Assembly (NCBI GenBank): GCA_017480345.1
Contig: JAFVAU010000012.1
Location: 1 to 45,380 of the forward strand
Source of the DNA: Bacteroidales bacterium
GTDB taxonomy: Bacteria > Bacteroidota > Bacteroidia > Bacteroidales > UBA932
Reading direction: 5' to 3'
Length of the DNA stretch: 45,380 nt
A program made the translations under genes and the position numbers. Under the pieces are notes generated by a model. That model searched no databases and was not told the DNA's origin. It saw only the letters and a list, made by a program, of their open reading frames with translations. This document shows positions 1 to 45,380 of the stretch, piece after piece; position 1 is the stretch's first letter, and each line of letters starts with the position of its first letter.

Positions 1-114
1 ACCAATGCGGCGGCGGAGTCGCTTAACTCCAAACTCAAAGGCTTTCGAGCTCAGCTACGAGGAGTATCAGATCTACCATTCTTCATGTACAGAGTCTGTC
101 ACATCTTTGGGTAG
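1..114 (+). CDS. C-terminal fragment of an ISL3-like (ISAon1-type) transposase
   Basis: The window opens inside a reading frame of 37 codons ending in TAG at 112-114. The peptide begins TNAAAESLNSKLKGFRAQ and ends in RVCHIFG, which matches the conserved C-terminal block of DDE transposases of the ISL3/ISAon1 group (NAAAES-N-K-K-FR-Q-RG, then a hydrophobic FF-Y/F-R stretch). The asparagine/glutamate block is part of the last catalytic region of these enzymes. Only the end of the gene is visible, so I cannot tell whether the copy is intact upstream. No inverted repeat marking the right end of the element could be identified with confidence in the following bases. Family assignment rests on remembered motif similarity. 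Confidence 0.7.
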   Translation, partial: TNAAAESLNSKLKGFRAQLRGVSDLPFFMYRVCHIFG

Positions 115-175
115 TCATACCCGGAACTTTGCCGGTGAGCCGTCTTGTTTCATAAGCATATAGGTTAATAATGAA

Positions 176-203
176 AGATTCTTCACTGCGTTCAGAATGA
201 CAG
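176..203 (-). repeat. Dispersed repeat module A (TGTCATTCTGA... type)
   Basis: On the minus strand this reads CTGTCATTCTGAACGCAG followed by TGAAGAATCT. The same module occurs twice inside the OstA-like gene at 40421-40447 and 40481-40507. Its outer parts are inversely complementary enough (AGATTCTTC...GAA) to form a small hairpin. It is a short interspersed repeat without coding capacity. Confidence 0.7.
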
Positions 204-204
204 A

Positions 205-229
205 TACCCGGTCAGGCCGGGTATGACGG
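205..229 (+). repeat. Dispersed repeat module B (CCCGGTCAGGCCGGG hairpin)
   Basis: The core is TACCCGGTCAGGCCGGGTA followed by TGACGG. The arms TACCCGG and CCGGGTA pair into a short hairpin. Nearly the same 25 bases (TGCCCGGTCAGGCCGGGCA, TGACGG) lie inside mutL at 13106-13130, with both arm bases changed so that pairing is kept. It directly follows module A here, so the two may travel together. Confidence 0.7.
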
Positions 230-508
230 AAGGCCCGCCGGGTATAACAACCCCCGCGAAGATCCCGAAGGCCTCGCGTTCGCAACTGAGAAAATATCGG
301 CTAAATAGTGATTCTCACCCCCCCCAGAAACCGGGAGGACGTGTCGGAAACAAGCTTATATGCAGCAAACCCTGCCATTCCGAACAATTCAAGTCGTAAA
401 AATAGCATTTTCCCCGCAATTCTCCAAATTTTGGCAAGGCAACACGACTGTTTCTAAAATGGAAACTGTCGCACGGATGGGATTCTGCAGTCTTCGATAA
501 TAACTGTC

Positions 509-757
509 TTATGCCGGAATGCCGTATTCCAAGATGGTATCGGAGGGGAGATCAACGCGCTCTGTCCAATACACATAGGTACGGGACGAGTCCAAACGGA
601 CATTACGGAACAGGCCATACTCCGTTTCCAGCACACGGAAATCGGCCAAGGTCTTTATATCGTCCTTGACATCATAGGCCACTTTCTTCCCGTTATCAAA
701 TTCTACGAGAAGAATGAAATTATCCAAAGGCTGTATGCTCTTTATTCTGGGTATCAT
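509..757 (-). CDS. DUF2442 domain protein
   Basis: A protein of 82 residues beginning MIPRIKSIQPLD. It shows the DUF2442 pattern: an N-terminal beta-strand region ending FDNGKKVAYDV, then a middle helix (LADFRVLE) and a C-terminal YVYWTERVDLPSDTILEYG block. I chose the start at 757 because its ATG overlaps the TAA of the DUF4160 gene (TAATG), a usual translational coupling arrangement; a longer frame from 799 would overlap that gene by 43 bases. DUF2442 proteins are often encoded beside DUF4160 proteins, and such pairs have been proposed to be toxin-antitoxin-like, but the biochemical role is not established. The pair is noticeably AT-richer than the neighbours, which suggests acquisition by transfer. 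Confidence 0.8.
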   Translation of the reverse strand: MIPRIKSIQPLDNFILLVEFDNGKKVAYDVKDDIKTLADFRVLETEYGLFRNVRLDSSRTYVYWTERVDLPSDTILEYGIPA

Positions 758-1011
758 TATTTCAGCGGTTCCAGCTTGGTAATAATCTGCGTGTTCCACA
801 TTTCAAGAAGGGCTTTATAATTGGTTTCCAGCCACTCCTTTACCATGTTCTGTGCCTTCACAGGAAGGTCACCATCCGTCATTTGAAACGTGTGAATATC
901 AAAGATGCCAACGTATTCGTTATAAATTGCATGGATATGCGCTGGTTCATGTTCTTTGGGCTTGAAGAACATTTTGATAATAATCCCGTAAAATCTACAA
1001 ATCTCCGGCAT
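757..1011 (-). CDS. DUF4160 domain protein
   Basis: An 84-residue protein starting MPEICRFYG. The family signature is seen at about residues 11-33: a hydrophobic strand (GIIIKMFF), then KEHEPAHIHAIYNEY with closely spaced histidines, and a C-terminal helix with KEWLETNYKALLEMW. DUF4160 proteins are small cytoplasmic proteins of unknown activity; the histidine block suggests a metal or nucleic-acid site, but this is inference. The gene is first in a two-gene unit with the DUF2442 gene (one-base overlap) and has its own promoter at 1051-1058. Low GC and closeness to a transposase tail mark it as accessory DNA. Confidence 0.8.
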   Translation of the reverse strand: MPEICRFYGIIIKMFFKPKEHEPAHIHAIYNEYVGIFDIHTFQMTDGDLPVKAQNMVKEWLETNYKALLEMWNTQIITKLEPLK

Positions 1012-1050
1012 GGTTTATAACTTCCTGCATATTAGATGCAAGAACTATGG

Positions 1051-1058
1051 CAAATGTA
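1051..1058 (-). promoter_or_regulatory. -7 promoter motif for the DUF4160-DUF2442 unit
   Basis: Minus strand TACATTTG fits the Bacteroidetes -7 consensus TAnnTTTG. It leaves a leader of about 35 nt before the ATG at 1011. Confidence 0.55.
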
Positions 1059-1100
1059 ACAAATAATCCTGACAAGACAAAATATTGAGTGGGGTAGCCG

Positions 1101-1595
1101 CTAAAACGCGTAAATAATGATGTAAAACAGCATCACGGCGCTGGAAATGAGCTTGATGCCGGTGCCGAACATAAAGCCCAGGAAGGCACCAATGGCCGAT
1201 TTCACGGAGGTCATGGTGTCTTTCCGCGCAAACAGGAGTTCGGCCACGAAGGCGCCCGCCACGGAGCCCAGAATCATGCCCACGGGGGGATAGATGAGGC
1301 CGATGAACAGGCCGATGACGGCCCCCCAGCCGCCGTATTTGGAGCCGCCGGTGACCTTGGTGAACCAGGCCGGCACAAAATAGTCCAGGATGCTCACCGC
1401 AATCACGATGCCCAGCCAGACCAGGAGGAAGGTGGTGCTCATGGGCTCTCCGGCGCCGTTGGTTCCGCCGCCCCAGATATACAGGCACAGCAGGCCCACC
1501 CAGCTCAGGGGAGGCCCGGGCAGGGCCGGCGCCACGGAGCCGATAATGCCCAGTACGCCCAATATGATGGCGGCAACAGCCACAAAAGTTTCCAT
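1101..1595 (-). CDS. DUF456 family membrane protein
   Basis: A 164-residue, strongly hydrophobic protein starting METFVAVAAIILG. About five membrane segments are visible (roughly residues 3-22, 30-42, 54-75, 90-122 and 138-163) with many glycines, including PALPGPPLSWVG after the first segment and YGGWGAVIGLFIGL in the middle. This order of features is that of DUF456 proteins, inner-membrane proteins of unknown function. A much longer open frame runs upstream on the same strand, but it is antisense to the aminopeptidase gene and has no family features, so I start at the METFV methionine. The gene is divergent from the aminopeptidase P gene, with only 48 bases between the start codons. Confidence 0.82.
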   Translation of the reverse strand: METFVAVAAIILGVLGIIGSVAPALPGPPLSWVGLLCLYIWGGGTNGAGEPMSTTFLLVWLGIVIAVSILDYFVPAWFTKVTGGSKYGGWGAVIGLFIGLIYPPVGMILGSVAGAFVAELLFARKDTMTSVKSAIGAFLGFMFGTGIKLISSAVMLFYIIIYAF

Positions 1596-1612
1596 GCTAT
1601 GAAAATATTTTT

Positions 1613-1620
1613 TATCTTTG
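1613..1620 (+). promoter_or_regulatory. -7 promoter motif for aminopeptidase P
   Basis: TATCTTTG. Its position rules out the upstream in-frame ATG at 1599 as a start and supports the ATG at 1644, 23 nt downstream. Confidence 0.6.
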
Positions 1621-1643
1621 AGGAAACAAAAGCCATACCAAAA

Positions 1644-3041: not shown

Positions 3042-3052
3042 CCTCCCTAAAA

Positions 3053-3165
3053 TTGGTGACAGCTAACTTCCTAATTCTCATAGACTTGCAGTACATTTCT
3101 CGTTCAAATTTTGAACGAGAAATGTTGTATAAGTGACTATGGGACAATAAGTTAGCTGTCACCAA
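3053..3165. repeat. Long palindromic element, copy 1 (about 110 bp)
   Basis: Outer arms TTGGTGACAGCTAACTT and AAGTTAGCTGTCACCAA are perfect inverted repeats of 17 bases. The centre contains ACATTTCTCGTTCAAA and TTTGAACGAGAAATGT, again a perfect inverted repeat. The stretches between arms and core are imperfectly complementary, so the whole unit could fold into one long hairpin. It separates two co-directional genes (pepP and ahcY). Copy 2 lies at 9316-9423. It could be a terminator-like or MITE-like element. Confidence 0.85.
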
Positions 3166-3210
3166 AAATAAGGGTATCATGCGCCATTAGGGAATGTGGC
3201 GGGTTTTTGT

Positions 3211-3218
3211 TACCTTTG
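3211..3218 (+). promoter_or_regulatory. -7 promoter motif for the ahcY operon
   Basis: TACCTTTG, 21 nt before the ATG at 3240. It excludes the in-frame start at 3207. Confidence 0.6.
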
Positions 3219-3239
3219 CAGACTATAATCTTATGCACT

Positions 3240-6639: not shown

Positions 6640-6642
6640 GTT

Positions 6643-7566: not shown

Positions 7567-7573
7567 AAATTGT

Positions 7574-7581
7574 TATCTTTG
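7574..7581 (+). promoter_or_regulatory. -7 promoter motif 4 nt before a start codon
   Basis: TATCTTTG, then TGAT, then ATG at 7586. Known Bacteroidetes spacing would place the transcription start at or next to the ATG, so a leaderless mRNA is likely. Confidence 0.6.
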
Positions 7582-7585
7582 TGAT

Positions 7586-7828
7586 ATGGAAAACGTAGAT
7601 CTTGAAATCTGGTGGTCCTCCCTTCCCATCAGCGAGAAGGAACGCATTGCCCTCAAAGGCATCCGCAAAGCCGGCGGGGCCGACGAATCCCAGGCGCAGT
7701 ACCCGGCCTGCACGGCCTGGTGGAACGCCCTGGAAGCAGAGCGCAAACTCTTCATTTACAAGCACTGCGTGCTGGCCCACGGTGACGAAATGAAGGAGTG
7801 GCGGGAAGAAAACCCCTACGGAGATTAG
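7586..7828 (+). CDS. Small conserved protein of unknown function
   Basis: An 80-residue acidic protein starting MENVDLEIWWSSLPISEKE. It has tryptophans at both ends (WW near residue 9, TAWWNALEAERK in the middle, KEWREENPYGD at the end) and looks fully helical, without signal peptide or membrane segment. I do not recognise a characterised family. It has its own promoter with a 4-nt spacer and lies 9 bases upstream of the ComF-like gene, so the two are probably co-transcribed. Confidence 0.7.
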   Translation: MENVDLEIWWSSLPISEKERIALKGIRKAGGADESQAQYPACTAWWNALEAERKLFIYKHCVLAHGDEMKEWREENPYGD

Positions 7829-7837
7829 TTCCTTCCC

Positions 7838-8551: not shown

Positions 8552-8559
8552 ATTATTCT

Positions 8560-8567
8560 TATCTTTA
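8560..8567 (+). promoter_or_regulatory. Weak -7 motif for rsmE
   Basis: TATCTTTA, one mismatch from TAnnTTTG, 19 nt before the ATG at 8587. Confidence 0.4.
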
Positions 8568-8586
8568 CAGCGTTAAACGAGAGACG

Positions 8587-11985: not shown

Positions 11986-13839
11986 ATGGAACTGAAGATT
12001 CTACCGAAGAATATTGCAGACATGATTGCTGCGGGAGAGGTGGTCCAGAGACCGGCTTCCGTGGTGAAGGAACTCATGGAGAATGCGGTGGATGCCGGTG
12101 CCACGGACGTGAAAGTGGTGGTGGCCGATGCCGGCCGCACCCTTGTCCAGGTTATCGACAACGGCTGCGGCATGACGCCGGACGACGCCGTGCTGTGCTT
12201 CGAGCGGCATGCCACCTCCAAACTGGCATCGGCCGAAGACCTGCATCACATCCTCACCTTCGGCTTCCGCGGAGAGGCCCTGGCCTCCATCGCCGCCGTG
12301 GCGGAGGTGACCCTCCGTACCCGCATGGCCGGCGAGGAGCTGGGCGTGGAAGTGACCATGGCCGCCTCCGAGAACAAGGGCACCCGGGAGGTTTCCTGCC
12401 CCGTGGGCACCAACCTCTCCGTGCGGAACCTCTTTTACAACATCCCCGCCCGCCGCAAGTTCCTCAAAAGCGACAACGTAGAGCTCCGCCATATCGTGGA
12501 GGAGTTCCAGCGGGTGGCCCTCACCCGCCCGGACGTGGCCTTCACCCTTACCCACAACGGCAAGGACATCCATGTGGTGAAGCCCGCCCAAAGCTTCAAA
12601 TTCCGCATCCAGGACCTCCTGGGGCCCGCCCTCATCGGCGAGCTCATGGACATATCGGCCGATACCACCATCGCCTCGCTGCAGGGGTATATCGGCAAGC
12701 CCGAAAGCGCCCGCAAAACCCTTGGAAACCAGTTTTTCTTTGTCAACGGCCGCTATTTCCGCAGCCCGCTGCTGCACAAGGCCGTGATGAAGGCCTATGA
12801 GAACCAGGTGCCGGAGGGGAGTACCCCGTCGTATTTCATCTACCTGGACGTGGACCCCGCCACCGTGGATGTGAACATCCATCCCACCAAGGCGGAAATC
12901 AAGTTTGAGGAGGATCAAATTCTCTTCCAGACGGTATTTGCCGCCGTGAAGGAGGCCCTGGGTAAGCTGGGGGTGGCCGGCTCCATCGAGTTCGACAACC
13001 CCGAGGCTCGGGAGATTCCCGTGATGGGCTCGCGCTTTGAGGAGTATCGGCCCACATCCGTGCCCTCCGCCGGGGTGGACTGGAATTACAATCCTTTTGA
13101 CCAGATGCCCGGTCAGGCCGGGCATGACGGAATGGGACTGGCCGGGCATGACGCCGCGCCCGACTTTGGCTCCGGTGCGCCCGTCACCCCCGACCCGGTC
13201 GGGGGGCTCCACACCCGCCGCTATACAGACCCCAATCCCAATTACGGGGCCCTGTTCGAAGACCGGACGCTGCCCACGCAGCAGATTCTGGTGGTGAAGG
13301 GGAAGTACATCCTTACCCAGAGCGCCGGCGGGCTCATGGTGGTGAACATCCGCCGGGCGCAGGAGCGGCTCCTGAACGACCGCTTCCTGAAGGCCCTCAC
13401 GGCCAATGCGCACGTGTCGCAGACGGCCCTTTTCCCCGTGCAGGTGACGGTGGGCGTGGATGCCTGCCTGCTGCTGCAGGAGCATTCGGAGACGTTGAAG
13501 AGCCTGGGCTTTGACATCGTCCCCTTCGGCACGGATACCGTGGTGGTGTCCGGCGTGCCGGAAGGCTACAGCGCCCAGCAGGGGAAAGTGGAAACCCTCA
13601 TCGGAGACATCCTTCTCATCCTTCAGGACGAGCACGGCGGCCTGCCGGGCGTGATGGAGCAGGCGCTGGCCCAGAAATTCGCCTTCCTGGGGGCTTCCGG
13701 CGGGGATCCTGTCACTTCGCCCTTAGAGGCCCAGCGGCTGGTGGATGCCCTGCTCCAGTGCCAGAATCCGGAGTTTACATCGGCCGGAAAACGTATCATT
13801 TCCATTGTTCCGCTGGAGGAACTGGACAAGAAATTTTAG
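11986..13839 (+). CDS. mutL: DNA mismatch repair protein MutL
   Basis: A 617-residue GHKL ATPase that links mismatch recognition to strand removal. N-terminal ATPase motifs are intact: ENAVDAGA, DNGCGM and FGFRGEALASI within the first 105 residues, and NIHPTKAEIKF near 300. The linker at about residues 372-400 contains QMPGQAGHDG, read from a dispersed DNA repeat. In the C-terminal domain the place where endonuclease-type MutL proteins have DQHA-E reads NIRRAQERLL (N454-I455-R456), and the late cysteine block reads CQNPEFT instead of C-HGRP, so endonuclease activity is doubtful. Start at 11986 is chosen because MELKILPKNIADMIAAGEV is the family N-terminus; the open frame upstream runs through the inverted-repeat element. 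Confidence 0.93.
   Translation: MELKILPKNIADMIAAGEVVQRPASVVKELMENAVDAGATDVKVVVADAGRTLVQVIDNGCGMTPDDAVLCFERHATSKLASAEDLHHILTFGFRGEALASIAAVAEVTLRTRMAGEELGVEVTMAASENKGTREVSCPVGTNLSVRNLFYNIPARRKFLKSDNVELRHIVEEFQRVALTRPDVAFTLTHNGKDIHVVKPAQSFKFRIQDLLGPALIGELMDISADTTIASLQGYIGKPESARKTLGNQFFFVNGRYFRSPLLHKAVMKAYENQVPEGSTPSYFIYLDVDPATVDVNIHPTKAEIKFEEDQILFQTVFAAVKEALGKLGVAGSIEFDNPEAREIPVMGSRFEEYRPTSVPSAGVDWNYNPFDQMPGQAGHDGMGLAGHDAAPDFGSGAPVTPDPVGGLHTRRYTDPNPNYGALFEDRTLPTQQILVVKGKYILTQSAGGLMVVNIRRAQERLLNDRFLKALTANAHVSQTALFPVQVTVGVDACLLLQEHSETLKSLGFDIVPFGTDTVVVSGVPEGYSAQQGKVETLIGDILLILQDEHGGLPGVMEQALAQKFAFLGASGGDPVTSPLEAQRLVDALLQCQNPEFTSAGKRIISIVPLEELDKKF
13105..13152 (+). repeat. Repeat module B inside mutL
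   Basis: Contains TGCCCGGTCAGGCCGGGCA followed by TGACGG (13106-13130), then a second partial unit GCCGGGCATGAC at 13141-13152. The same module is intergenic at 205-229. The insertion keeps the mutL frame and lies in the flexible linker. Confidence 0.75.
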
Positions 13840-14505: not shown

Positions 14506-15585
14506 ATGGCCGAGCGTAAAAAACGGCACTGGCTTTCCCGGCTTTCCTTCGGCTCCGTCTGCCTGCTGGCTTCGGCGTTGCTGGTGCTGGCCTATGTGTC
14601 CGTGATTGTGGATCCGGCCAAAGCCTGGTTCTTTACGTTCTTCGGCCTGCTGTATCCGCCGGTGCTGGTGTTCACGTTTGGCCTGTTTGTGTGGGCCCTC
14701 ATCCGCCGTTCCTCCATGCGCGGCCTCCTTCTGACGGTGCTCCTTCCCTCCTTTTTCTTTGTAGGCCGATATTACCAGCCCCACTGGAAGACCCTGGAAG
14801 GGGAGTCTTCCCTGAAGGTGGTGAGCTACAATGTGGGCCTCTTCGCCCACTCCGACGGCGCTCAGGACCGTTTGGCCCTGGCCGATTCCGTCTGCGCCTT
14901 CCTGCTGAAACAGGATGCGGACATCATCTGCCTGCAGGAATTCTATCTGCCTTCCGGCGAGAACCCAGACCGCTGGCTGCGGCGGCATTTCCCCGGCTAT
15001 AAGGCGGAATACTACCTCCTTACCGGCAAGAGCGGCCGGGCTGGGAACCTTACCCTGAGCCGCCGGGGCGTCCATGACCGCGGAAAGGAAGTCTTTGAGA
15101 AATCCACCAACATGGCGGTGTGGACGGACGTGAAGCTGGACAGCAGCACCGTACGCATCTACAATTGCCATTTCGAGAGCTACAACATCTCCCTGAGCGG
15201 TCTGGTGAAGGGCCTCCGCAACGATGCCTTCCTGGAAGAGACCGGCCTCAAGATGCGCCGTTCCATTACCAGCCGCCCCAAGCAGGTGGCCCACGTGCTG
15301 CAGAGCATGGAGAAGGCTCCGGTGCGTTCCCTTGCGGTGGGAGACTTCAACGACAGCCCGCTCTCCTACACCTATTTCCGCCTCCAGCGTGGCCGCAAAG
15401 ACTCCTTCGTGAAGGCCGGCAAGGGCTTCGGCGCCACCTACCGTGCCCTCTGGCCCCTCCTGCGGATAGACTACATCCTCTATCCCAAGAACCTGGAGGC
15501 CATATCCTTCGAGGTGCTTTCCGCCCCCTACTCTGACCACAATCCCATCGTGGCCACCTACTTCGAAACCTCCCGTGGGGAATAA
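14506..15585 (+). CDS. Membrane-anchored endonuclease/exonuclease/phosphatase (EEP) family protein
   Basis: A 359-residue protein. Residues about 13-90 hold three hydrophobic segments, followed by an EEP domain from about residue 98 (LKVVSYNVGLFAH). Catalytic-site residues are visible: N105 in SYNVG, E145 in CLQEFY, D280 and N282 in VGDFND, and D344-H345 in YSDHNPIVA. The domain hydrolyses phosphodiester bonds in DNA, RNA or phospholipid head groups, and the membrane anchor with probably periplasmic domain suggests a non-genomic substrate. It begins directly after the rhomboid stop (TAA-ATG). A repeat element begins on the base following its stop. Confidence 0.88.
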   Translation: MAERKKRHWLSRLSFGSVCLLASALLVLAYVSVIVDPAKAWFFTFFGLLYPPVLVFTFGLFVWALIRRSSMRGLLLTVLLPSFFFVGRYYQPHWKTLEGESSLKVVSYNVGLFAHSDGAQDRLALADSVCAFLLKQDADIICLQEFYLPSGENPDRWLRRHFPGYKAEYYLLTGKSGRAGNLTLSRRGVHDRGKEVFEKSTNMAVWTDVKLDSSTVRIYNCHFESYNISLSGLVKGLRNDAFLEETGLKMRRSITSRPKQVAHVLQSMEKAPVRSLAVGDFNDSPLSYTYFRLQRGRKDSFVKAGKGFGATYRALWPLLRIDYILYPKNLEAISFEVLSAPYSDHNPIVATYFETSRGE

Positions 15586-15673
15586 GTGCGAGTAACGTCC
15601 CAAAAACCGGGACGTCACTGCCAAAATCGGCCTTTTTTGCGAGTAACGTCCCATTTTCAGGGACGTCACTAAC
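15586..15673 (+). repeat. REP-like double-hairpin element, copy R1
   Basis: Unit a is GCGAGTAACGTCCC, a short loop, GGGACGTCACT. A spacer with AAAATCGGCCTTTTTT follows, then unit b with GCGAGTAACGTCCC and GGGACGTCACT. Both units are hairpins in direct orientation, 51 bases apart. It starts at the base after the EEP stop codon. Other copies: 16851-16940, 28592-28679, 31668-31754, 33324-33412. Confidence 0.9.
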
Positions 15674-15747
15674 GCCCGAGGCCGTTCACCATTATGTCTG
15701 CGGCAAGGAAGGAGGACAAAAAGGTAGCGATTTTATGGAAAAATGCC

Positions 15748-15755
15748 TACTTTTG
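15748..15755 (+). promoter_or_regulatory. -7 promoter motif 4 nt before the tsaC start
   Basis: TACTTTTG, then TACT, then ATG at 15760. It rejects the longer in-frame start at 15694 and suggests a leaderless mRNA. Confidence 0.6.
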
Positions 15756-15759
15756 TACT

Positions 15760-16362
15760 ATGAAACCCGAAGAGATTCTAAATGAAGCGCTCCGCACGCT
15801 CAAAGAAGGCGGAACCATCCTCTATCCCACGGACACCGTATGGGGTCTGGGCTGCGATGCCACCAACCCCGACGCCGTGTCCCGCATCTTTGAAATCAAG
15901 CACCGGGCCGATTCCAAGTCCCTGGTGCTCCTGGCCAGTGACCTGGACATGGTAGCCAAGTATGTGCGGGAGATTCCGTCCATCGCCATCGACCTGGTGG
16001 AGGTGAACGACGCGCCCATGACCATCATCTATCCGGAGGCCCTCGCCGGCGTGGCCGGAGAGCCCGGAGACCGCTGGCACCTAGCCCACAACACCGTGGC
16101 GGAAGATGGCTCCGTGGGTATCCGCATCCCGCTCATGGACTGGTGCAAGCAGCTGGTATACAAGCTGGGACGGCCCATCGTGAGCACATCGGCCAATATC
16201 TCCGGAGAGCCCACGCCGCAGCGTTTCTCCGACATTCCGCAGGAGATCAAGGACGCCGTGGACTTTGTGGTGCCGCCGTCCGTGGACACCCAGAGCACCG
16301 GCAAGGCTTCGCAGATTCTCAAGGTGGGCCTGAAGGGAGAAATTGAAATTATCAGAAAGTAG
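15760..16362 (+). CDS. tsaC: Threonylcarbamoyl-AMP synthase (TsaC/Sua5/YrdC)
   Basis: A 200-residue single-domain enzyme that makes threonylcarbamoyl-AMP from threonine, bicarbonate and ATP for the t6A modification of tRNA. Seen motifs: TILYPTDTVWGLGCDAT near residue 20, KHRADSKSLVLL around 50 and STSANISGEPTP around 147-158, which form the substrate and nucleotide site. It is the short form without the C-terminal Sua5 domain. The start follows from the -7 box ending 4 bases upstream. It is co-transcribed with ispF, whose ATG follows one base after the stop. Confidence 0.92.
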   Translation: MKPEEILNEALRTLKEGGTILYPTDTVWGLGCDATNPDAVSRIFEIKHRADSKSLVLLASDLDMVAKYVREIPSIAIDLVEVNDAPMTIIYPEALAGVAGEPGDRWHLAHNTVAEDGSVGIRIPLMDWCKQLVYKLGRPIVSTSANISGEPTPQRFSDIPQEIKDAVDFVVPPSVDTQSTGKASQILKVGLKGEIEIIRK

Positions 16363-16363
16363 T

Positions 16364-16843
16364 ATGGATATCAGAATAGGTAACGGATACGACGTGCACG
16401 CCCTGGCCCCGGACCTTCCCATGTGGCTGGGCGGCATTCAGATACCCTCCGCCACGGGTTTCGTAGCCCATTCGGACGGAGACGTGGCCATCCATGCGCT
16501 GTGTGACGCCCTGCTGGGCTGCCTGGCGCTGGGGGATATCGGGCATCTTTTCCCGGATACGTCCGACGAGTGGAAGGGCGTGGACAGCAAGATTCTGCTG
16601 CGGAAGGTGATGACCATTATCCGGGAAAAAGGCTACAGTGTGGGGAATGTGGACATCACCATCGCCCTGCAAAAACCCAAGCTGGCACCGCACATTGCCG
16701 CCATGCGTGCCACCCTGGCCCCCCTACTGGGCGTGGCCGAAGACTGCGTCTCCATCAAAGCCACCACCACCGAGCGGCTGGGCTTCGTGGGCCGCTGCGA
16801 GGGCTGCGAGGTCTGGGCCACGGCGCTTATCCTCCGAAAATAA
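16364..16843 (+). CDS. ispF: 2-C-methyl-D-erythritol 2,4-cyclodiphosphate synthase
   Basis: A 159-residue enzyme of the non-mevalonate isoprenoid pathway that cyclises CDP-methylerythritol 2-phosphate. Metal ligands D10, H12 (GYDVHAL) and H44 (DGDVAIHALCDALLG) are present, followed by GDIGHLFPDT and the C-terminal ATTTERLGFVGRCEG block. Length is normal. Two bases remain between the tsaC stop and the ATG, and the seven-codon upstream extension of the frame overlaps tsaC and is not needed. A repeat copy (R2) follows the stop by 7 bases. Confidence 0.96.
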   Translation: MDIRIGNGYDVHALAPDLPMWLGGIQIPSATGFVAHSDGDVAIHALCDALLGCLALGDIGHLFPDTSDEWKGVDSKILLRKVMTIIREKGYSVGNVDITIALQKPKLAPHIAAMRATLAPLLGVAEDCVSIKATTTERLGFVGRCEGCEVWATALILRK

Positions 16844-16850
16844 CGGCCGG

Positions 16851-16940
16851 GTGCGTAAGGTGTCCCTGAGAATGGGACGTTACTCGCAAAAAAGGCCGAT
16901 TTTGGCAGTGACGTCCCGGTTTTTGGGACGTTACTCGCAC
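16851..16940 (-). repeat. REP-like double-hairpin element, copy R2
   Basis: Inverse orientation relative to R1. On the minus strand: GTGCGAGTAACGTCCC, loop, GGGACGTCACT, spacer with AAAATCGGCCTTTTTT, GCGAGTAACGTCCC, loop, then GGGACACCTTACGCAC. The last arm departs from the consensus GGGACGTYACT. Located between ispF and the radA promoter. Confidence 0.9.
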
Positions 16941-16982: not shown

Positions 16983-18350
16983 ATGGCAAGTGCAAAGACA
17001 AAGACGCTGTGGTTCTGCAGCAACTGCGGCAATGAATACTCCAAATGGATGGGCCGATGCCCGGCCTGCGGGGAGTGGAACACCATGGTGGAAAGGGAAG
17101 TGGTGACGGGGAGCTCCAAGGCGGCGCCCATGACATCAGCCCCCGGGAACGCCCGGAAGCCCATGCGGCTGAAGGACGTATCCACCACCGTGGAGGACCG
17201 CGTGTCCCTGGGCAGCGCAGAGGTGGACCGGCTCCTGGGAGGCGGCATCGTGAAAGGTTCGCTGGTGCTCATGGGCGGAGAGCCTGGCATTGGCAAGAGT
17301 ACGCTTTCGTTGCAGCTGCCCCTGCATTCCCCGGCCCTCAAGACCCTCTATGTGACGGGTGAGGAAAGCGTGAAGCAGGTGAAGATGCGGGCGGACCGCC
17401 TGGGCGGGCAGGACGACAACTGCCTCATCCTGAGCGAGACGGACATGTCCACCATCCTGAAGGAGGCGGAGGAAGCCGCTCCGGACCTGATGATTGTGGA
17501 TTCCGTGCAGACGATGTACTGCCAGCACATCGATTCCACCGCCGGTTCCGTGAGCCAGATCAAGGAGGTGGCGGCCCAGTTGCTGCGCTTTGCCAAGAGC
17601 ACGGGAGTGCCGGTAATTCTGATTGGCCATATTACCAAGGAGGGCACCATTGCGGGGCCCAAGATCCTGGAGCACATTGTGGACGTGGTGTTGCAGTTTG
17701 AAGGGGAGAACCGCGGGGCGTACAGGGTTCTGAGGAGTATCAAGAACCGCTTTGGGTCCACTTCCGAGCTGGCGGTGTTCGAGATGACGGGCACCGGCCT
17801 CAGGGAGGTGGCCAACCCTTCCGAGATGCTCATCCCCATGCACGAAACGGGCCTCAGCGGAACGGCCATATCGGCCATGCTGGACGGCAACCGTCCCTTC
17901 CTCTTCGAGGTGCAGGCGCTGGTGTCAAGCGCGGTCTATGGAACAGCGCAGCGCAGCGCCACGGGTTTTGATGTGCGGCGGCTGAACATGCTGCTGGCGG
18001 TGCTGGAGCGCCGGGCGGGCTTCAAGCTTGGCCAGAAGGACGTGTTCCTGAACATGGCCGGCGGCCTGCGCATCACGGACCCCGCCTGCGACTTGGCCGT
18101 CATCTGCGCCGTGCTTTCCTCCACCTTCGACTATCCCATATCGGCCGATATCTGCTTTGCCGGCGAAGTGGGCCTCAGCGGGGAAATCCGCCCCGTGTCA
18201 CAGGCCGCCCGCCGCGCGGTGGAAGCCGCCCGCGTGGGTTTCAAACGCATTTTCGTGAGTTCCTACACCCACTTCGACCAGAAGCCGGAAGGCATAGAAG
18301 TGGTGAAAGTGGCCGATATCCCCGCCCTGGTAAGGGCTTTATTCAAATAA
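16983..18350 (+). CDS. radA: DNA repair protein RadA
   Basis: A 455-residue RecA-like ATPase and branch-migration helicase that processes recombination intermediates and, in competent species, extends D-loops. The N-terminal zinc finger has C12, C15, C26 and C29. The Walker A motif GGEPGIGKST places the lysine at 105. The RadA-specific KNRFG motif is present (SIKNRFGSTSELAVFEM), and the C-terminal Lon-like domain follows (VFLNMAGGLRITDPACDLAV onwards). Normal length. It is followed after 4 bases by the thioredoxin-like gene. Confidence 0.96.
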   Translation: MASAKTKTLWFCSNCGNEYSKWMGRCPACGEWNTMVEREVVTGSSKAAPMTSAPGNARKPMRLKDVSTTVEDRVSLGSAEVDRLLGGGIVKGSLVLMGGEPGIGKSTLSLQLPLHSPALKTLYVTGEESVKQVKMRADRLGGQDDNCLILSETDMSTILKEAEEAAPDLMIVDSVQTMYCQHIDSTAGSVSQIKEVAAQLLRFAKSTGVPVILIGHITKEGTIAGPKILEHIVDVVLQFEGENRGAYRVLRSIKNRFGSTSELAVFEMTGTGLREVANPSEMLIPMHETGLSGTAISAMLDGNRPFLFEVQALVSSAVYGTAQRSATGFDVRRLNMLLAVLERRAGFKLGQKDVFLNMAGGLRITDPACDLAVICAVLSSTFDYPISADICFAGEVGLSGEIRPVSQAARRAVEAARVGFKRIFVSSYTHFDQKPEGIEVVKVADIPALVRALFK

Positions 18351-28574: not shown

Positions 28575-28591
28575 ATTATGCTGCGCCCCAA

Positions 28592-28679
28592 GTGCGAGTG
28601 ACGTCCCAAAAACAGGGACGACACTGTCAAAATCGGCCTTTTTTGCGAGTGACGTCCCAAATTCCGGGACGTTACTAAC
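28592..28679 (+). repeat. REP-like double-hairpin element, copy R3
   Basis: GTGCGAGTGACGTCCC, loop, GGGACGACACT, spacer with AAAATCGGCCTTTTTT, GCGAGTGACGTCCC, loop, GGGACGTTACTAAC. Located between two convergent genes. Confidence 0.9.
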
Positions 28680-31626: not shown

Positions 31627-31667
31627 GACGCAAAAACCGGAAAAAGTTAAGCCGGAATCCAGAAAAA

Positions 31668-31754
31668 CGTGTGAGGTGTCCCAAAAACAGGGACGACACT
31701 ACCAAAATCGGCCTTTTTTGCGAGTGACGTCCCAAATTTCGGGACGTTACTAAC
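31668..31754 (+). repeat. REP-like double-hairpin element, copy R4
   Basis: CGTGTGAGGTGTCCC, loop, GGGACGACACT, spacer with AAAATCGGCCTTTTTT, GCGAGTGACGTCCC, loop, GGGACGTTACTAAC. The first arm is the variant GAGGTGTCCC, the same as the outer arm of R5 at 33324. R4 and R5 are in opposite orientation around the glycosylase and RAYT genes. Confidence 0.9.
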
Positions 31755-33303: not shown

Positions 33304-33323
33304 GCGTTCTTTCGCCGGTTAAG

Positions 33324-33412
33324 CGTGTGAGGTGTCCCGGAATTTGGGACGTCACTCGCAAAAAAGGCCGATTTTGACAGTGTCGTCCCTGTTTTTGGGA
33401 CGTCACTCGCAC
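33324..33412 (-). repeat. REP-like double-hairpin element, copy R5
   Basis: On the minus strand: GTGCGAGTGACGTCCC, loop, CAGGGACGACACT, spacer with AAAATCGGCCTTTTTT, GCGAGTGACGTCCC, loop, GGGACACCTCACACG. It begins 21 bases after the RAYT stop codon. Confidence 0.9.
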
Positions 33413-38271: not shown

Positions 38272-40790
38272 TCCTGAGGGGCTCTCATAAATGGTTTATC
38301 CCCGTGCTGCTGCTGCCTTTCGCAGTGGCGGCATTGGCTTATGGCCCCCGTCCCCAGGACGGTCCGGACAAGCAGAAAGTCTATCTCCTGAGTTCCCAGA
38401 GCGCCCAGCTCATCGAGAAGGACGGAGAGAGCTACCGCAAGGTGGTGGGTCCCGCCAAATTCCTGCATAACAACACCTATCTCCTCTGCGACACGGCCCT
38501 CTGGAACGTCCAGACCAACATTATCGACGCCACGGGCCATGTGCGCATTATCCAGGAGAACACCCAGCTGTCTTCCAACACCCTGCAGTATGTAGTGGAC
38601 GACAATATGGCCAAGTTTCGCGGAGACCTGGTGCAGCTGGAAGACGCCGACCACAACACCCTCCGCACCCGTTACCTGGACTACAACACCAAGGATTCCG
38701 TGGCCATTTTCTCCGGCGGCGGCGCCATGCGGGACAAGGACGGCCAGGTTATCGAGAGCATCTACGGCACCTACGACTCCAAGGCCCGCCTCTTCGTGTT
38801 CAACGACCAGGTGAACATGTACCTGGACACCACCTTCATCAAGACCTCCCGCCTGGAATACCGCTCCGACCTGTCCACCGCCTACTTTGGCTACGGCACG
38901 GACATGTTGCAGGACAAGGAGATGCTGAGCGCCAACGACGGCTGGTACGACCGTCCCCGCGAGCTGTTCTTCTTCCGCCGCAAGGTGCACGCCCTTACCC
39001 AGGACCAGGAAGTCTGGTGCGACTCCCTCTACTACTCCCGCGTTACCAAGGACGTGGTGATGCTGGGGAACGTGGAAATCATGGACACCACCCGCAACGT
39101 CTTCGGCCTGGCCGGAAAGATGGAATACACGGACTCCCTCTCCCAGATCCGGATGACCCGCGACCCCGCCATCATGAGCATCACGGAGGAGGAAGAAAAC
39201 AGGGATTCCGTCTACATAGGGGCCGATGTCCTCCTTTCCCGCGCCATCCGCCGCTGTGATATCCCCGACGCCTGGGTGGCCGATGCCCAGACCCGCTTGA
39301 AGGACATTTCCGGAGACCCGGTGATGGAATACCGCAAGAAGGCCGCGGAAGCGGCCGCCCAGGCAGCGGCCGAAGCCGCCAAGAACAACCCTGAACTGGC
39401 CGCGGCGGAAGCCGCCCGCGCCATCCGCGAGCAGCGGCAGAAAGAGGCCGGAGGGAAGTCCGGCAAGATAGCGGAGCCGGAAACGAAGCCGGAGGAGCAG
39501 CCGGAGGAAGTATCGGCCGATACCACAGCGGCGGTAACGGCGCCGGTGGACACCCTTCCCCCGCCTCCGGATACCACCAAGATCAATTTTGTCTGGGGCT
39601 CCGGCAACGTGCGCATGTTCCGCCGCAACATGCAGATGGCCTCCGACTCCCTCTCTTACACGGACCTGGACTCCCTGGCCCGCCTGTACAAGAACCCCAT
39701 TTTCTACAATGAGGGCAACCGCCAGTACGCCTCCGACAGCATGTACGTGGTTATCCGGGAGAAGCGCATGCAGCGGGCCCACCTGCTGTCCAACGCCTTC
39801 ATCACCATTGAGGAGGCCCCCGGCGCCTACGACCAGATTCGCGGAACGGAGATGGTGGCCTATTTTGACAGCACCAACGCCCTCACGCGCTTCGACGCCC
39901 TGGGCGGCGCTTCCTCCCTCTTCTACCTGGAGGAGAACGGGGCCCTGGCCACGGTGAACAAGGTGGAATCCAAGATGATTTACGCCACCTTCTCGGGTGG
40001 GCAGATGGAGCGCATCTATTACTACGACAACCCCAAGAACGACGGTTATCCCACCGTGCAGCTTCCTCAGGAGGACAAGACCCTCAAGGGCTTCCGCTGG
40101 GACCCGGACCGTCGTCCTTCCTCTCCGCTGGACGTGACGGCCCTGGTGCCCCGCAAGAGTGAGCGAATGGCCTACCTGGCCCGCCCGCATGCGGCCTTTG
40201 TACAGACGGAGGATTATTTCCCCGGCCATATTGGCAAGGTGTACCGGGACATTGCCCTGCGGGATTCCCTGGCCATAGAGCAGGAGAGGGAGCACCAGCG
40301 CACGGAGGCCCTCCGGAAGGAGCTGGAAGCCTTCAAACAGGCCCAGGCCGATTCCCTCACCGCCCGTGCCGACAGCCTTGCCGTCCCTTCGGACACCCCT
40401 GTCATTTTGAGAGACACATCTGTCATTCTGAGCGAAGCGAAGAATCTCCCGGACACCACGGCCACCCAGAGGGACACTTCTGTCATTCTGAACGAATCGA
40501 AGAATCTGTCGGCCAAAGAGTTACGCAAGCAGGAAAAGGAGAAACAGCGTGCCCTCAAGGAGGCGGAGCGCAAAGCCCGCTGGGAAGAGAAAGACCGGCA
40601 GGATGCCCAGAGACGCGCCGCCAAGGAGGCCAAGCGCCTGGAGCGGGAGCGCGCCAAGAAACTGAAGGCCCTTCAGAAACTGGAGCGCAAGGCGCAGAAA
40701 GAGCGGGCCCGCTTTGAAAAATACTTGCAAAAAGAGAGGGAGAAAGCCCTCAAACGTGCACTGAAACAACAAAAACAGACAAAGAAATGA
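38268..40790 (+). CDS. OstA-like protein (LptA/LptD N-domain family)
   Basis: An 840-residue exported protein starting at GTG 38268, which overlaps the SurA TGA (GTGA); no in-frame ATG is near. A membrane/signal segment lies at about residues 9-24 (FIPVLLLPFAVAALAYG). Two OstA-type beta-jellyroll regions are seen: about 35-330 (SAQLIEKDGESYRKVVGPAK, HNNTYLLCDTALWN, GHVRIIQENTQLSSN) and about 440-620 (KINFVWGSGNVRMF onward), separated by an alanine/glutamate-rich linker. The last 100 residues are a lysine/arginine/glutamate coiled coil. Between them, about residues 708-745 are read from dispersed repeats (SVILSEAKNL, SVILNESKNL). It is expected to bind lipopolysaccharide during transport. Confidence 0.85.
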   Translation: MILRGSHKWFIPVLLLPFAVAALAYGPRPQDGPDKQKVYLLSSQSAQLIEKDGESYRKVVGPAKFLHNNTYLLCDTALWNVQTNIIDATGHVRIIQENTQLSSNTLQYVVDDNMAKFRGDLVQLEDADHNTLRTRYLDYNTKDSVAIFSGGGAMRDKDGQVIESIYGTYDSKARLFVFNDQVNMYLDTTFIKTSRLEYRSDLSTAYFGYGTDMLQDKEMLSANDGWYDRPRELFFFRRKVHALTQDQEVWCDSLYYSRVTKDVVMLGNVEIMDTTRNVFGLAGKMEYTDSLSQIRMTRDPAIMSITEEEENRDSVYIGADVLLSRAIRRCDIPDAWVADAQTRLKDISGDPVMEYRKKAAEAAAQAAAEAAKNNPELAAAEAARAIREQRQKEAGGKSGKIAEPETKPEEQPEEVSADTTAAVTAPVDTLPPPPDTTKINFVWGSGNVRMFRRNMQMASDSLSYTDLDSLARLYKNPIFYNEGNRQYASDSMYVVIREKRMQRAHLLSNAFITIEEAPGAYDQIRGTEMVAYFDSTNALTRFDALGGASSLFYLEENGALATVNKVESKMIYATFSGGQMERIYYYDNPKNDGYPTVQLPQEDKTLKGFRWDPDRRPSSPLDVTALVPRKSERMAYLARPHAAFVQTEDYFPGHIGKVYRDIALRDSLAIEQEREHQRTEALRKELEAFKQAQADSLTARADSLAVPSDTPVILRDTSVILSEAKNLPDTTATQRDTSVILNESKNLSAKELRKQEKEKQRALKEAERKARWEEKDRQDAQRRAAKEAKRLERERAKKLKALQKLERKAQKERARFEKYLQKEREKALKRALKQQKQTKK
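40421..40447 (+). repeat. Repeat module A inside the OstA-like gene, copy 1
   Basis: TGTCATTCTGAGCGAAGCG followed by AAGAATCT. A degenerate further start of the module (TGTCATTTTGAGAGA) lies at 40400-40414. The same module is intergenic at 176-203. Confidence 0.85.
40481..40507 (+). repeat. Repeat module A inside the OstA-like gene, copy 2
   Basis: TGTCATTCTGAACGAATCG followed by AAGAATCT, exactly 60 bases after copy 1 and in the same reading frame. Confidence 0.85.
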
Positions 40791-41815: not shown

Positions 41816-41827
41816 TCATTACGCTTT

Positions 41828-43816
41828 ATGGAAGAGAAAAAACAAGTCCAGCTTCCGGAGAATGCCCACCGGGAGCTCAAGCCGGGAGAAACGTACCAAC
41901 CCATCCTGGACCCCGCGGGAAAGTACACGGAGGCAACGCCTTATTCCGTGGCCGTGGGCCTTCTGATGGTGATTCTGTTCAGTGCCGCGGCGGCCTATCT
42001 GGGCCTCAAGGTGGGCCAGGTGTTCGAGGCGGCCATCCCCATCGCCATCATCGCGGTGGGCCTTACGGGCGCCCTGGGCCTCAAGCAGGGGCTTAGCCAG
42101 AACGTGATTATCCAGAGTGTGGGCGGCTGCTCCGGCGCCGTGGTGGCGGGAGCCATCTTTACCCTGCCGGCCATCTACATCCTGGGTGTGGAGGTGAATT
42201 TCTGGCAGATGGTCCTGAGTTCCCTCCTCGGAGGCGTGCTGGGCATCCTCTTCCTCATTCCCTTCCGCAAATATTTCGTGAAGGAGATGCACGGGAAGTA
42301 CCCCTTCCCGGAGGCCACCGCCACCACGCAGGTGCTCATCAGCGGCGAGGGCGGCGGCTCCAGCGCCAAGACGCTCATATCGGCCGGTCTCATCGGCGGC
42401 CTGTACGACTTTGCCGTGGCCACTTTCGGTACCTGGGCGGAGACGGTTTCCACCACGGTGACGGGCTGGGGCGCCGCCCTGGCCGACAAAGCCAAGCTGG
42501 TCCTGAAGATGAACACCGGCGCCGCCGTGCTGGGCCTGGGCTATATCATCGGCCTCAAATATTCCTTCATCATCTGCTGCGGCTCCCTGCTGGTGTGGCT
42601 GGTGATTATCCCCCTGATGAACCTCATTTGGGGGGCCGATGTCATCGACCTCATGGGAACGGGCGTGTCACAGACGATAGGCCAGATGGCACCTGAGCAG
42701 ATTTTCAAGGACTATGCACGGCATATCGGCATCGGTGGCATCGCCACGGCCGGCATCATTGGCATCGTGAAGAGCTTCGGTGTTATCAAGAGCGCCGCGG
42801 GCCTGGCGGTGAGCGAATTCAAGCGCAAGCCGGGCACCCTGGACGAGAAAGCGCTCCGCACGGAGGAAGACCTGCCCATTAAGACCATCGTTTTTGGGGT
42901 GGTGGTAGCCCTGCTGTGCATCTTCGCCTTCTTTGCCTTCGGCGGCGTGGTGAACAACGTCTGGCAGGCCCTGGTGGGCCTTCTGGTGGTGGCCGTGGTG
43001 AGTTTTCTCTTTACCACCGTGGCGGCCAACGCCATTGCCATCGTGGGCTCCAACCCGGTGAGCGGCATGACGCTGATGACGCTTATTATTGCGTCTTTGA
43101 TTCTGGTGGCCGTGGGCCTGAAAGGGAATGCCGGCATGGCTGCGGCGCTCATCATCGGCGGCGTGGTTTGCACGGCTCTCTCCGTGGCGGGCAGCTTTAT
43201 CACAGACCTCAAGATTGGTTACTGGATTGGCTCCACGCCCAAGGTGCAGGAAGGCTGGAAATTCCTGGGCGTGGCGGTATCGGCCGTTACCGTATGCGGC
43301 GTGATGCTGGTGCTCAACAAGACGTACGGATTCACCGGAGACAACGCCCTGGTGGCCCCGCAGGCCAATGCCATGGCGGCCGTGATTCAGCCCATGTTCT
43401 CCGGCGGCGGCGCACCCTGGCTGCTGTACGGAATAGGTGCGGCCATTGCGCTGGTGCTCAATTTCTGCAAGGTGCCGGCCCTGCCCTTTGCCCTGGGTAT
43501 GTTCATCCCTATCGACCTGAACCTGCCCCTGCTGGTTGGCGGCGCCATTTCCTGGTACGTGAGCACCCGCTCCAAGGACGCAGCCGTGAACACGGCCCGG
43601 CAGGAGAAAGGCACCCTCATCGCCTCCGGCTTCATCGCCGGTGGCGCCCTCATGGGCGTGGTGAGCGCCATCCTCAAGTTCGCTTCTGTGGACCTGTATC
43701 TGAGTGATTGGGCCGCCAGCTACGGCGAGGCCGTGGCCCTCCTTCCCTTCCTGGCCATCGTTGCTTATATGGAGTATGCTTCCTTACGCGTTGACGTACA
43801 GAGAGATGATGTTTAA
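41828..43816 (+). CDS. OPT family oligopeptide transporter
   Basis: A 662-residue inner-membrane protein with about 15 hydrophobic segments. OPT-family blocks are visible: the N-terminal AAAYLGLKVGQVFEAAIPIAI, the SQNVIIQSVGGCSGAVVAGA stretch, GKYPFPEATATTQVLISGEG in the third region and VGSNPVSGMTLMTLIIASLI in the second half. It probably imports oligopeptides with protons. It follows galE by 12 bases with no promoter box seen. Its last 33 bases overlap, tail to tail, the 3' end of peptidase T on the other strand, and the two products may act in succession: peptide uptake and tripeptide cleavage. Confidence 0.92.
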   Translation: MEEKKQVQLPENAHRELKPGETYQPILDPAGKYTEATPYSVAVGLLMVILFSAAAAYLGLKVGQVFEAAIPIAIIAVGLTGALGLKQGLSQNVIIQSVGGCSGAVVAGAIFTLPAIYILGVEVNFWQMVLSSLLGGVLGILFLIPFRKYFVKEMHGKYPFPEATATTQVLISGEGGGSSAKTLISAGLIGGLYDFAVATFGTWAETVSTTVTGWGAALADKAKLVLKMNTGAAVLGLGYIIGLKYSFIICCGSLLVWLVIIPLMNLIWGADVIDLMGTGVSQTIGQMAPEQIFKDYARHIGIGGIATAGIIGIVKSFGVIKSAAGLAVSEFKRKPGTLDEKALRTEEDLPIKTIVFGVVVALLCIFAFFAFGGVVNNVWQALVGLLVVAVVSFLFTTVAANAIAIVGSNPVSGMTLMTLIIASLILVAVGLKGNAGMAAALIIGGVVCTALSVAGSFITDLKIGYWIGSTPKVQEGWKFLGVAVSAVTVCGVMLVLNKTYGFTGDNALVAPQANAMAAVIQPMFSGGGAPWLLYGIGAAIALVLNFCKVPALPFALGMFIPIDLNLPLLVGGAISWYVSTRSKDAAVNTARQEKGTLIASGFIAGGALMGVVSAILKFASVDLYLSDWAASYGEAVALLPFLAIVAYMEYASLRVDVQRDDV

Positions 43817-45007
43817 TATCACCTCTGTGGCCTTCTCCATGCTCTGAAGCGGCACAAATTCCATCTTCCCGTGGAAATTGAGGCCGCCGGCGAAGATGTT
43901 GGGGCAAGGGAGGCCCTTGAAAGAGAGGTTGGCGCCGTCCGTTCCGCCGCGGATGGGCTGGATCTTGGGCTTGATATCGGCCATTTCCATGGCCTTCACC
44001 GCCTTCTCTATAATATGGTAGTGGGGCTCCACCTGCTCACGCATATTATAATATTGGTCTTTTACCTCCAGGACAATGGTTCCTTCTCCGTATTTGGTGT
44101 TCAGGAAGGAGGCCACAAAGCCGATGAGCTTCTTCTTCTCCTCGAACTTGGCGTGATCGTGGTCCCGGATGATGTAAGAGAAATCCGCCTCCTCCACGCT
44201 TCCCTTGAAGGAGATGAGGTGGAAGAAGCCCTCGTAGCCTTCCGTGAATTCCGGGCGCTGGTCCACGGGCAGCAGGGAATTGAACTCCTGCCCAATGAGG
44301 AGGGCGTTTTTCATCTTGCCCTTGGCGCTGCCGGGATGCACGTTCCGGCCCTGGATATGGATTTTGGCCGATGCTGCGTTGAAGTTCTCAAACTCCAGCT
44401 CTCCAATCTCTCCGCCGTCCATGGTGTAGGCATAATGGGCCCTAAAACGCTTCACGTCGAATTTCACCACGCCCCGGCCAATCTCCTCGTCGGGGGTGAA
44501 GCCTATCTTGACGGGCCCGTGCTTCACCTCGGGATGCTCCATGAGGTACTGCACCGCCGTCATGATTTCCGCCACGCCGGCCTTGTCATCGGCCCCCAGG
44601 AGGGTGGTGCCGTCGGTGGTGATGAGGGTCTGGCCCACGTAATGCAGCATTTCCGGGAATTCCTCCGGCTTGAGTTGGAGGCCGGGAACGCCCTTGAGGT
44701 CGATGGCGCCGCCGTCATACTTCTCGATGATCTGCGGCTTCACGTCCTTGCCGCTGGCGTCCGGGGCCGTGTCCACATGGGCGATGAAGCCCACGGCGGG
44801 CACCTCGTAGTCCACGTTGGAAGGGATGGAGGCCATCACATAGCCATATTCGTCCAGAGTCACCTCCACGCCCATCTCCTGCAACTCGTCACGGAGCATT
44901 TTCAGCAGGTCCCACTCCTTGGCGGCGGAGGGCTGGGTCTGGGATTCCTCATTACTCTGTGTGTCCACCGACACGTAACGCAAAAAACGGTTCAGAATTT
45001 TTTCCAT
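43784..45007 (-). CDS. pepT: Peptidase T (tripeptide aminopeptidase, M20B)
   Basis: A 407-residue cytoplasmic dizinc enzyme that removes the N-terminal residue of tripeptides. Metal and catalytic residues are present: H77 and D79 in AHVDTAPD, D140 in LGADDKAG, E174-E175 in TPDEEIGRG, D197 in YTMDGGEIGE, and H379 in NFHGKMEF. The dimerisation domain lies in between (about 205-315). Length is that of the family. The 33-base overlap with the OPT gene places part of both C-termini on the same DNA. Upstream on the minus strand is an A/T-rich region with a weak -7 candidate (TAACTTCG). Confidence 0.95.
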   Translation of the reverse strand: MEKILNRFLRYVSVDTQSNEESQTQPSAAKEWDLLKMLRDELQEMGVEVTLDEYGYVMASIPSNVDYEVPAVGFIAHVDTAPDASGKDVKPQIIEKYDGGAIDLKGVPGLQLKPEEFPEMLHYVGQTLITTDGTTLLGADDKAGVAEIMTAVQYLMEHPEVKHGPVKIGFTPDEEIGRGVVKFDVKRFRAHYAYTMDGGEIGELEFENFNAASAKIHIQGRNVHPGSAKGKMKNALLIGQEFNSLLPVDQRPEFTEGYEGFFHLISFKGSVEEADFSYIIRDHDHAKFEEKKKLIGFVASFLNTKYGEGTIVLEVKDQYYNMREQVEPHYHIIEKAVKAMEMADIKPKIQPIRGGTDGANLSFKGLPCPNIFAGGLNFHGKMEFVPLQSMEKATEVILNIISLYVNA

Positions 45008-45094
45008 ATAGATATAGTATCTTTTGTCTTTCTTGCGAAGTTACGATTTTTTGAAAAAAAGTGAAAAAAAATTTGCCAGGTTAAAAAAAGTTAG

Positions 45095-45102
45095 TACCTT
45101 TG
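45095..45102 (+). promoter_or_regulatory. rRNA promoter directly upstream of 23S
   Basis: TACCTTTG with TTTG at 45072-45075 as the -33 element (19-nt spacer). A hairpin CCCGTTT-G-AAACGGG follows at 45107-45121, then GTTCATTGAC at 45125, which resembles a boxA antitermination site. Confidence 0.65.
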
Positions 45103-45264
45103 CAGTCCCGTTTGAAACGGGGTAGTTCATTGACAATACTGAGAGAATAGATTAGAGGTAAAGCAAAAGATAGAGTTAGTCTGATAAAGAAGTTATCAAA
45201 AACGGAATTTTCGGACTACAATTTCAATAGGCAAGAGCAAAAAAATGATTCACAAATAATCAGA
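45103..45264 (+). promoter_or_regulatory. Leader region of the 23S rRNA transcript
   Basis: About 160 A/T-rich bases between the promoter and the 23S start. They contain the hairpin at 45107-45121 and a boxA-like stretch, but no 16S rRNA or tRNA gene. Confidence 0.6.
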
Positions 45265-45380
45265 GAAAGAAGTTAAGAGCGAACGGAGGATGCCTAGGCT
45301 ATCCGGAGGCGATGAAAGACGTGGTAAGCTGCGAAAAGCCGCGGGGATCTGCAAACAGGAATTGATCCGCGGATATCTGA
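45265..45380 (+). rRNA. 23S rRNA, 5' end (partial)
   Basis: The sequence GAACGGAGGATGCC, then GGAGGCGATGAAAGACGTGG and TAAGCTGCGAAAAGCC match the universally conserved 5' domain of 23S rRNA (E. coli GUACACGGUGGAUGCC and GAGGCGAUGAAGGACGUG). The 5' boundary is approximate to a few bases. The gene continues past the window end. Confidence 0.93.

Follow-up and report, generated by a model that had tools for sequence, protein, structure and literature searches.

The heptamer GGCCGAT (ATCGGCC on the complementary strand) is a real, genome-wide and maintained feature of the Bacteroidales genome studied here, apparently oriented in this genome and in its sister species, and shifting among relatives. 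In the window, by which we mean the whole 45,380-nt stretch of DNA that was analysed, 49 copies of GGCCGAT and 43 of ATCGGCC, 92 in all, occur both in and between genes, close to the roughly 90 (about 49 plus 41) of the original prediction. The chance figure of about 9 given there agrees with the zero-order expectation for both strands, 8.4, and the control word GGCCGAC, then put at about 11 on the plus strand, was recounted at 12. Expectations for both strands are 10.3, 9.8, 16.5, and 32.2 at Markov orders 1 to 4, and at orders 1-3 GGCCGAT tops the z-scores of all window 7-mers. A model of order 5, the order proposed with the prediction for the full genome, leaves almost no excess in the window (92 observed vs. 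85.1 expected, z 2.2); yet this excess is small because the GGCCGA and GCCGAT counts within the model are inflated by the motif itself, and we therefore do not take it as a refutation. The whole source genome (assembly of 2,220,095 bases in 46 contigs, 91.45% complete) holds 1,664 + 1,669 = 3,333 copies, a density of 1.50 per kb, or roughly one copy in 1.3 kb on each strand, against 274 (117 + 157) of the reversed control word.

Table 1. GGCCGAT sites and associated elements in the window
Feature	Position	Strand	Basis or remark
Field of 92 GGCCGAT copies	1..45380	49 on +, 43 on -	word count, Markov z-scores
Palindromic double site TATCGGCCGATA	12653..12664		sequence match
Palindromic double site ATATCGGCCGATAT	18138..18151		sequence match
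Palindromic double site GTATCGGCCGATAC	39510..39523		sequence match
GGCCGAT at double-hairpin centre (element 15584-15673)	15626..15632	-	repeat search, word match
GGCCGAT at double-hairpin centre (element 16849-16938)	16894..16900	+	repeat search, word match
GGCCGAT at double-hairpin centre (element 28590-28679)	28632..28638	-	repeat search, word match
GGCCGAT at double-hairpin centre (element 31665-31754)	31707..31713	-	repeat search, word match
GGCCGAT at double-hairpin centre (element 33321-33410)	33366..33372	+	repeat search, word match
Three intergenic same-strand GGCCGAT copies (1194, 1298, 1310)	1194..1316	+	local exception to same-strand avoidance

Composition combined with codon or codon-pair usage can hardly account for this count alone. 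Such an explanation can draw on the order-5 model of the window, which leaves 92 copies against 85, but it conflicts with a five-fold excess that survives within-gene synonymous shuffling in all frames but one (576-577 in-gene copies observed vs. 112-114 shuffled, in a 399,954-base sample of the source genome) and with a nine-fold excess between genes. All six reading frames are used, as first noted from the sequence, but usage is far from even, ranging from 3 to 243 copies: 193 observed vs. 5 shuffled for Ser-Ala, 243 vs. 49 for Ala-Asp, 28 vs. 2.6 for the frame with the rare Arg codon CGA, and 96 vs. 45 for Ile-Gly, the single frame without excess having 3 vs. 4. Between genes, GGCCGAT is the most enriched 7-mer (50 vs. 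5.6 expected at order 2 and 8.0 at order 3); in an 800-kb sample, double-hairpin elements contain 11 of the 78 intergenic copies. The early statement that codon bias is insufficient thus holds on the shuffling (577 vs. 112), on the intergenic excess, and on the codon-matched conservation given below. The excess varies with gene G+C, from 2.1 at 42-48% to 5.5 and 6.4 at 58-64% and 4.9 above 64%, and copies run with the gene in 274 cases and against it in 303. The flank contexts listed keep a 3.7- to 8.8-fold excess over shuffling (GGCCGATG 313 vs. 49, GGCCGATA 146 vs. 24, GGGCCGAT 166 vs. 19, CGGCCGAT 140 vs. 19, AGGCCGAT 146 vs. 40); the core of the signal is 7 bp, with no required flank seen among these contexts. 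With sites masked, one-base neighbours differing at position 2 are low in the source genome (0.3-0.6); a general depletion of neighbours in the unmasked analysis was discarded as partly an artefact of inflated expectation, and masking was applied on repeat. GATC is itself strongly avoided in the window (43 sites, or 86 over both strands, vs. about 380 expected at order 1), and this avoidance removes most GGCCGAT copies that would have C next. CGATCG is absent from the window, and the genome has no PF02086 match.

Comparison with the sister species (G440) covered 108,580 aligned bases at 91.4% identity; alignment blocks of at most 300 columns or at most 84% identity were dropped, overlapping blocks were dropped from the site-conservation analysis, and the pair alignments did not include locus L042. 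The two genomes have 151 GGCCGAT sites in common, with 41 in the source genome only and 40 in the sister only. The resulting conservation frequency, 0.789 (other 7-mers reach 0.595, anagrams 0.612), is exceeded by 98 of 1,526 frequent 7-mers, so that the word is well but not most conserved. At synonymous sites, where the original prediction had suggested looking, a codon-matched test found 327 of 350 in-word codons identical vs. 282.2 expected (z 6.5); the CGA codon, for instance, was retained in 0.89 of 19 cases inside GGCCGAT vs. 0.31 of 29 outside. Divergence is 2-5% at positions 1-6, 13% at T7, and 9.6% in the flanks, the T7 value equalling that of ordinary third positions. Biased mutation or context-dependent repair is a very unlikely maker of the word: it would suit the exchange between T7 and C7, which makes up 26 of the 53 single-base differences from the sister species, as well as the number of mismatches per changed site, similar to that of anagrams. 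Those differences, however, are spread over all seven positions, codons within GGCCGAT change less than the same codons elsewhere, and the same-strand avoidance described next has no place in a mutational model.

Among pairs of GGCCGAT copies within 200 bp, excluding those at most 3 bp apart (palindromes), same-strand pairs are outnumbered by opposite-strand pairs in the source genome (135 vs. 204; 0 of 2000 strand permutations as low in same-strand share) and in the sister (109 vs. 173), although the two results are not independent because many sites are common by descent. The 120 commonest 7-mers have a median same-strand share of 0.65; of these, GCCGATA, which overlaps the motif, is alone in falling below GGCCGAT. 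The avoidance was not significant in genomes G036 (250 vs. 284, p 0.15), G416 (34 vs. 50, p 0.10), and G029 (277 vs. 286, p 0.74), nor in 58 relative loci (L043-L100; 58 vs. 79, p 0.087). Given the avoidance in the source and sister genomes, reading of GGCCGAT would appear to be unidirectional, and from these two genomes we infer that diminishing returns of an oriented signal would underlie it. No leading-strand polarity was seen: the strands of the long contigs sampled are balanced, seven contigs with 92-158 sites having forward shares of 0.47-0.54, and the strand or replichore skew originally suggested for checking did not appear on them. KOPS, the sequences that guide FtsK, would need polarity along the chromosome, and none was seen on these seven contigs. 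Spacing, another of the suggested checks, differs little from random (coefficient of variation 1.15-1.17), and no clear pile-up of copies at gene ends was found in the samples of the source genome.

Three extended palindromes had been reported in the window, and all were recovered at their coordinates (table 1); in a 400-kb sample of the source genome, 14 such double sites occur among 626 copies. The window also holds five double-hairpin elements, each 90 nt, and GGCCGAT is central in 5 of 5, in line with its description as the centre of every such element. The segment between the first two (~15720-16853) is inverted in two relatives (L041, L042), which suggests inversion through the double-hairpin repeats.

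More than 1,000 copies of the word were found in 8 of the 61 genomes of its genus, the source included, and many genomes lie near their control count. A family search (249 genomes) added one further congener above 1,000 (G144) and 0 of 218 genomes in other genera; in an order search (149 genomes) the highest density outside the family was ~0.36 per kb (G634) vs. 1.50 in the source. Those relatives that carry names are uncultured bins assigned to Bacteroidales or Bacteroidia, and for many of them the sample came from rumen or reticulum. Because a raw count reflects composition as well as motif, nulls preserving protein and codon usage were also used. For instance, the raw count near 1,000 in G127, from another genus, proved to be composition (14 observed, 14 expected in a 38-kb coding sample). 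By synonymous shuffling, GGCCGAT is enriched in the sister species (550 vs. 109), G027 (82 vs. 18), and G416 (149 vs. 21, with TGCCGAT 60 vs. 20); in G036 GGCCGAT, GGACGAT, and TGTCGAT are enriched, and in G029 GGCAATG (232 vs. 61), with all eight KGNCAAT words up 1.8- to 4.0-fold. The same scan gave no enriched word in G333 and G127 and a weak signal only in G013. Over the whole of G029, KGNCAATG occurs 2,731 times vs. 300 for its control, and KGNCGATG 886 vs. 456; smaller KGNCAATG excesses appear in several other genomes (e.g. G049, 830 vs. 119). Thus, related species use dialects, GGCCGAT, KGCCGAT, and KGNCGAT, with KGNCAAT in one. When 81 proteins (from 80 loci plus the window) are placed on a tree, word preference varies by clade, single-locus dialects being unsure with loci of ~7 kb each. 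L169 and L170 (G003), whose sequence consisted of N, were left out. GGCCGAT is nearly absent from G085, G079, G125, and G561 (2, 4, 14, and 0 copies; control words 253, 185, 375, and 226), perhaps through avoidance of GGCC. Within the source genome, 12 stretches of at least 3.5 kb lack the word, and the proteins of five were scanned for families. The longest (8 kb) is a ribosomal-protein and SecY operon, which fits codon constraint; two of the five carry mobile-element genes (integrase and primase in one, relaxase in the other), which fits recently arrived DNA. One of the remaining two has a fibronectin type III domain and the other no family match.

What reads the word? A Chi-like signal is favoured by three features: the strand-specific avoidance, the core of 7 bp, and the AddA-like and AddB-like proteins encoded in the genome. 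We tentatively suggest, at somewhat less than even confidence, that GGCCGAT is such a signal read by AddAB. An AddAB/RecBCD-type enzyme is encoded in the source genome, at family-level similarity, with the AddA and AddB matches below curated cut-offs. The AddA-like protein (L007:16088-19060) matches UvrD-helicase (E 1.6e-34), PDDEXK_1 (PD-(D/E)XK) weakly, and a RecB-like family below cut-off. The AddB-like protein (L229:2184-5018) matches addB_alphas (E 1.6e-18, below the curated cut-off), with PDDEXK_1 in its orthologues, and is 94% identical to that of the sister and about 62% to that of G036. The AddB-like protein was identified in three genomes, the AddA-like in one, and no gene could be tied to the dialects. 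Sequence searches found no solved relative of AddB, giving one chance-level match at most, and a structure model built from three sequences was unusable (mean pLDDT 39.6). On contig C7 an ftsK gene, a DUF4290 gene, and the addA-like gene adjoin on one strand (L007:13020-19060).

Under the Chi-like reading, GGCCGAT would be a short chromosomal signal with one reading direction, held at high density by selection or drive. AddAB would enter a broken DNA end, meet the word in the right orientation, cease degradation there, and begin recombinational repair; a second copy nearby in the same orientation would add little, whereas one on the opposite strand would serve the other break end. Related species may have shifted the word recognised by AddB, giving dialects around K-G-N-C-R-A-T. 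Several properties accord with this. Like Chi, the word is short, non-palindromic, and over-represented (3,333 vs. 274 copies; 577 vs. 112 against shuffling), and two of the five word-free stretches scanned carry mobile-element genes. The avoidance in the source and sister genomes hints that the word may be read in one orientation; the AddAB Chi of Caulobacter works in a single orientation (PMC5443536). In B. subtilis, the locus that recognises Chi belongs to the helicase-like part of AddB (PMC4824097). Tabulated Chi words have 5-8 bases (B. subtilis AGCGG, L. lactis GCGCGTG, S. aureus GAAGCGG, P. syringae GCTGGCGC; PMC5959072). Lack of replichore skew is shared with the Chi of several species: it is not significantly skewed in B. 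subtilis, S. aureus, and H. influenzae, and P. fluorescens has 1,119 vs. 1,122 copies (PMC5959072). Conversely, the missing leading-strand polarity differs from E. coli Chi, and the density exceeds that of Pseudomonas Chi, one per about 3 kb (PMC5959072); both count against Chi, as do the divergence at T7, the below-cut-off AddA and AddB matches, and the four sets in which avoidance was not significant. GGCCGAT also resembles no word in the table of that paper and, unlike the words listed there, has dialects within one genus; its Chi activity is putative. A broader proposal, which we regard as doubtful, is that the Chi code is diverging within a single genus of uncultured Bacteroidales living largely in the rumen: AddAB words differing by species, each written hundreds to thousands of times per genome, would let the repair enzyme of each species tell its own chromosome from foreign or sister-species DNA.

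Other readers were weighed against AddAB. As a DNA uptake sequence, GGCCGAT would be bound on free DNA by a surface receptor, own-species DNA would be preferred in natural transformation, and the word would accumulate by drive and selection. This is unlikely in our judgement, despite likeness to the DUS of Neisseriaceae, which also occur on both strands in thousands of copies (3,333 is within their range) and form dialects around a constant core (PMC3630211). ComEC is encoded in the source genome, one of 12 matches among 13 genomes (also 10 of 14 control genomes), two of the word-free stretches carry mobile-element genes, and Riemerella columbina, of the same phylum, favours its own DNA, with no established signal word (PMC7965970). 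Yet a 7-bp core that showed no need for a flank contrasts with the 10-mers counted for DUS; the receptor is hypothetical here; and a receptor of double-stranded DNA would not be expected to produce strand-specific avoidance. There is likewise no in-gene orientation excess (274 vs. 303) or clear gene-end pile-up, features reported for known uptake words or those of Pasteurellaceae (PMC2346458). A nucleoid-structuring or segregation protein, or some other DNA-binding protein that needs chromosomal GGCCGAT sites, seems rather unlikely as the reader. Word-level maintenance in and between genes together with dialects would fit any sequence-specific reader, and palindromic double sites turn up fairly often, 14 times in 400 kb; spacing, however, is near random (1.15-1.17), the contig polarity that a segregation signal would need is lacking, and an avoidance reaching ~200 bp far exceeds the width of a bound protein.

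A HIP1-like word tied to DNA methylation is a still more improbable identity. The HIP1 and alternate HIPs of cyanobacteria are, like GGCCGAT, highly iterated and different between relatives, and accompany orphan methyltransferases (PMC4390886). GGCCGAT, unlike HIP1, is non-palindromic, and the source genome (91.45% complete) gave no match to PF01555 and PF00145, in a search of 61 genomes, or to PF02384 and PF02086, in a search of 13; the control genomes matched these families in 11, 10, 13, and 4 of 14 cases, respectively. Of the roles initially offered for the word, the Chi-like one has therefore gained from the avoidance, the 7-bp core, and the AddA-like and AddB-like proteins, methylation has lost ground with these four families, and uptake keeps a minor share.

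No mention of GGCCGAT as a whole word was found in open-licence PMC papers; in the same literature, uptake sequences were not found with Bacteroidetes, nor was such a word in Bacteroidales among the matches listed. Should GGCCGAT prove to be Chi, Chi words would become available for a large group of gut bacteria, along with a natural dialect series for mapping AddB residues to the bases recognised. An uptake role would instead bring such words to a phylum in which a preference for own DNA is reported, with no signal word established (PMC7965970). On either reading, one word could help to split resident from mobile DNA in metagenome bins. Two further sequence features were recorded. An interspersed repeat with CTGTCATTCTGAGCGAAG is tandem at 40390-40509 and inverted near 173 (173-204) of the window. 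Finally, TATCTTTGCA/TGCAAAGATA, together with its sub-words, is enriched in intergenic DNA of the source-genome sample, and resembles the Bacteroidetes -7 promoter element.
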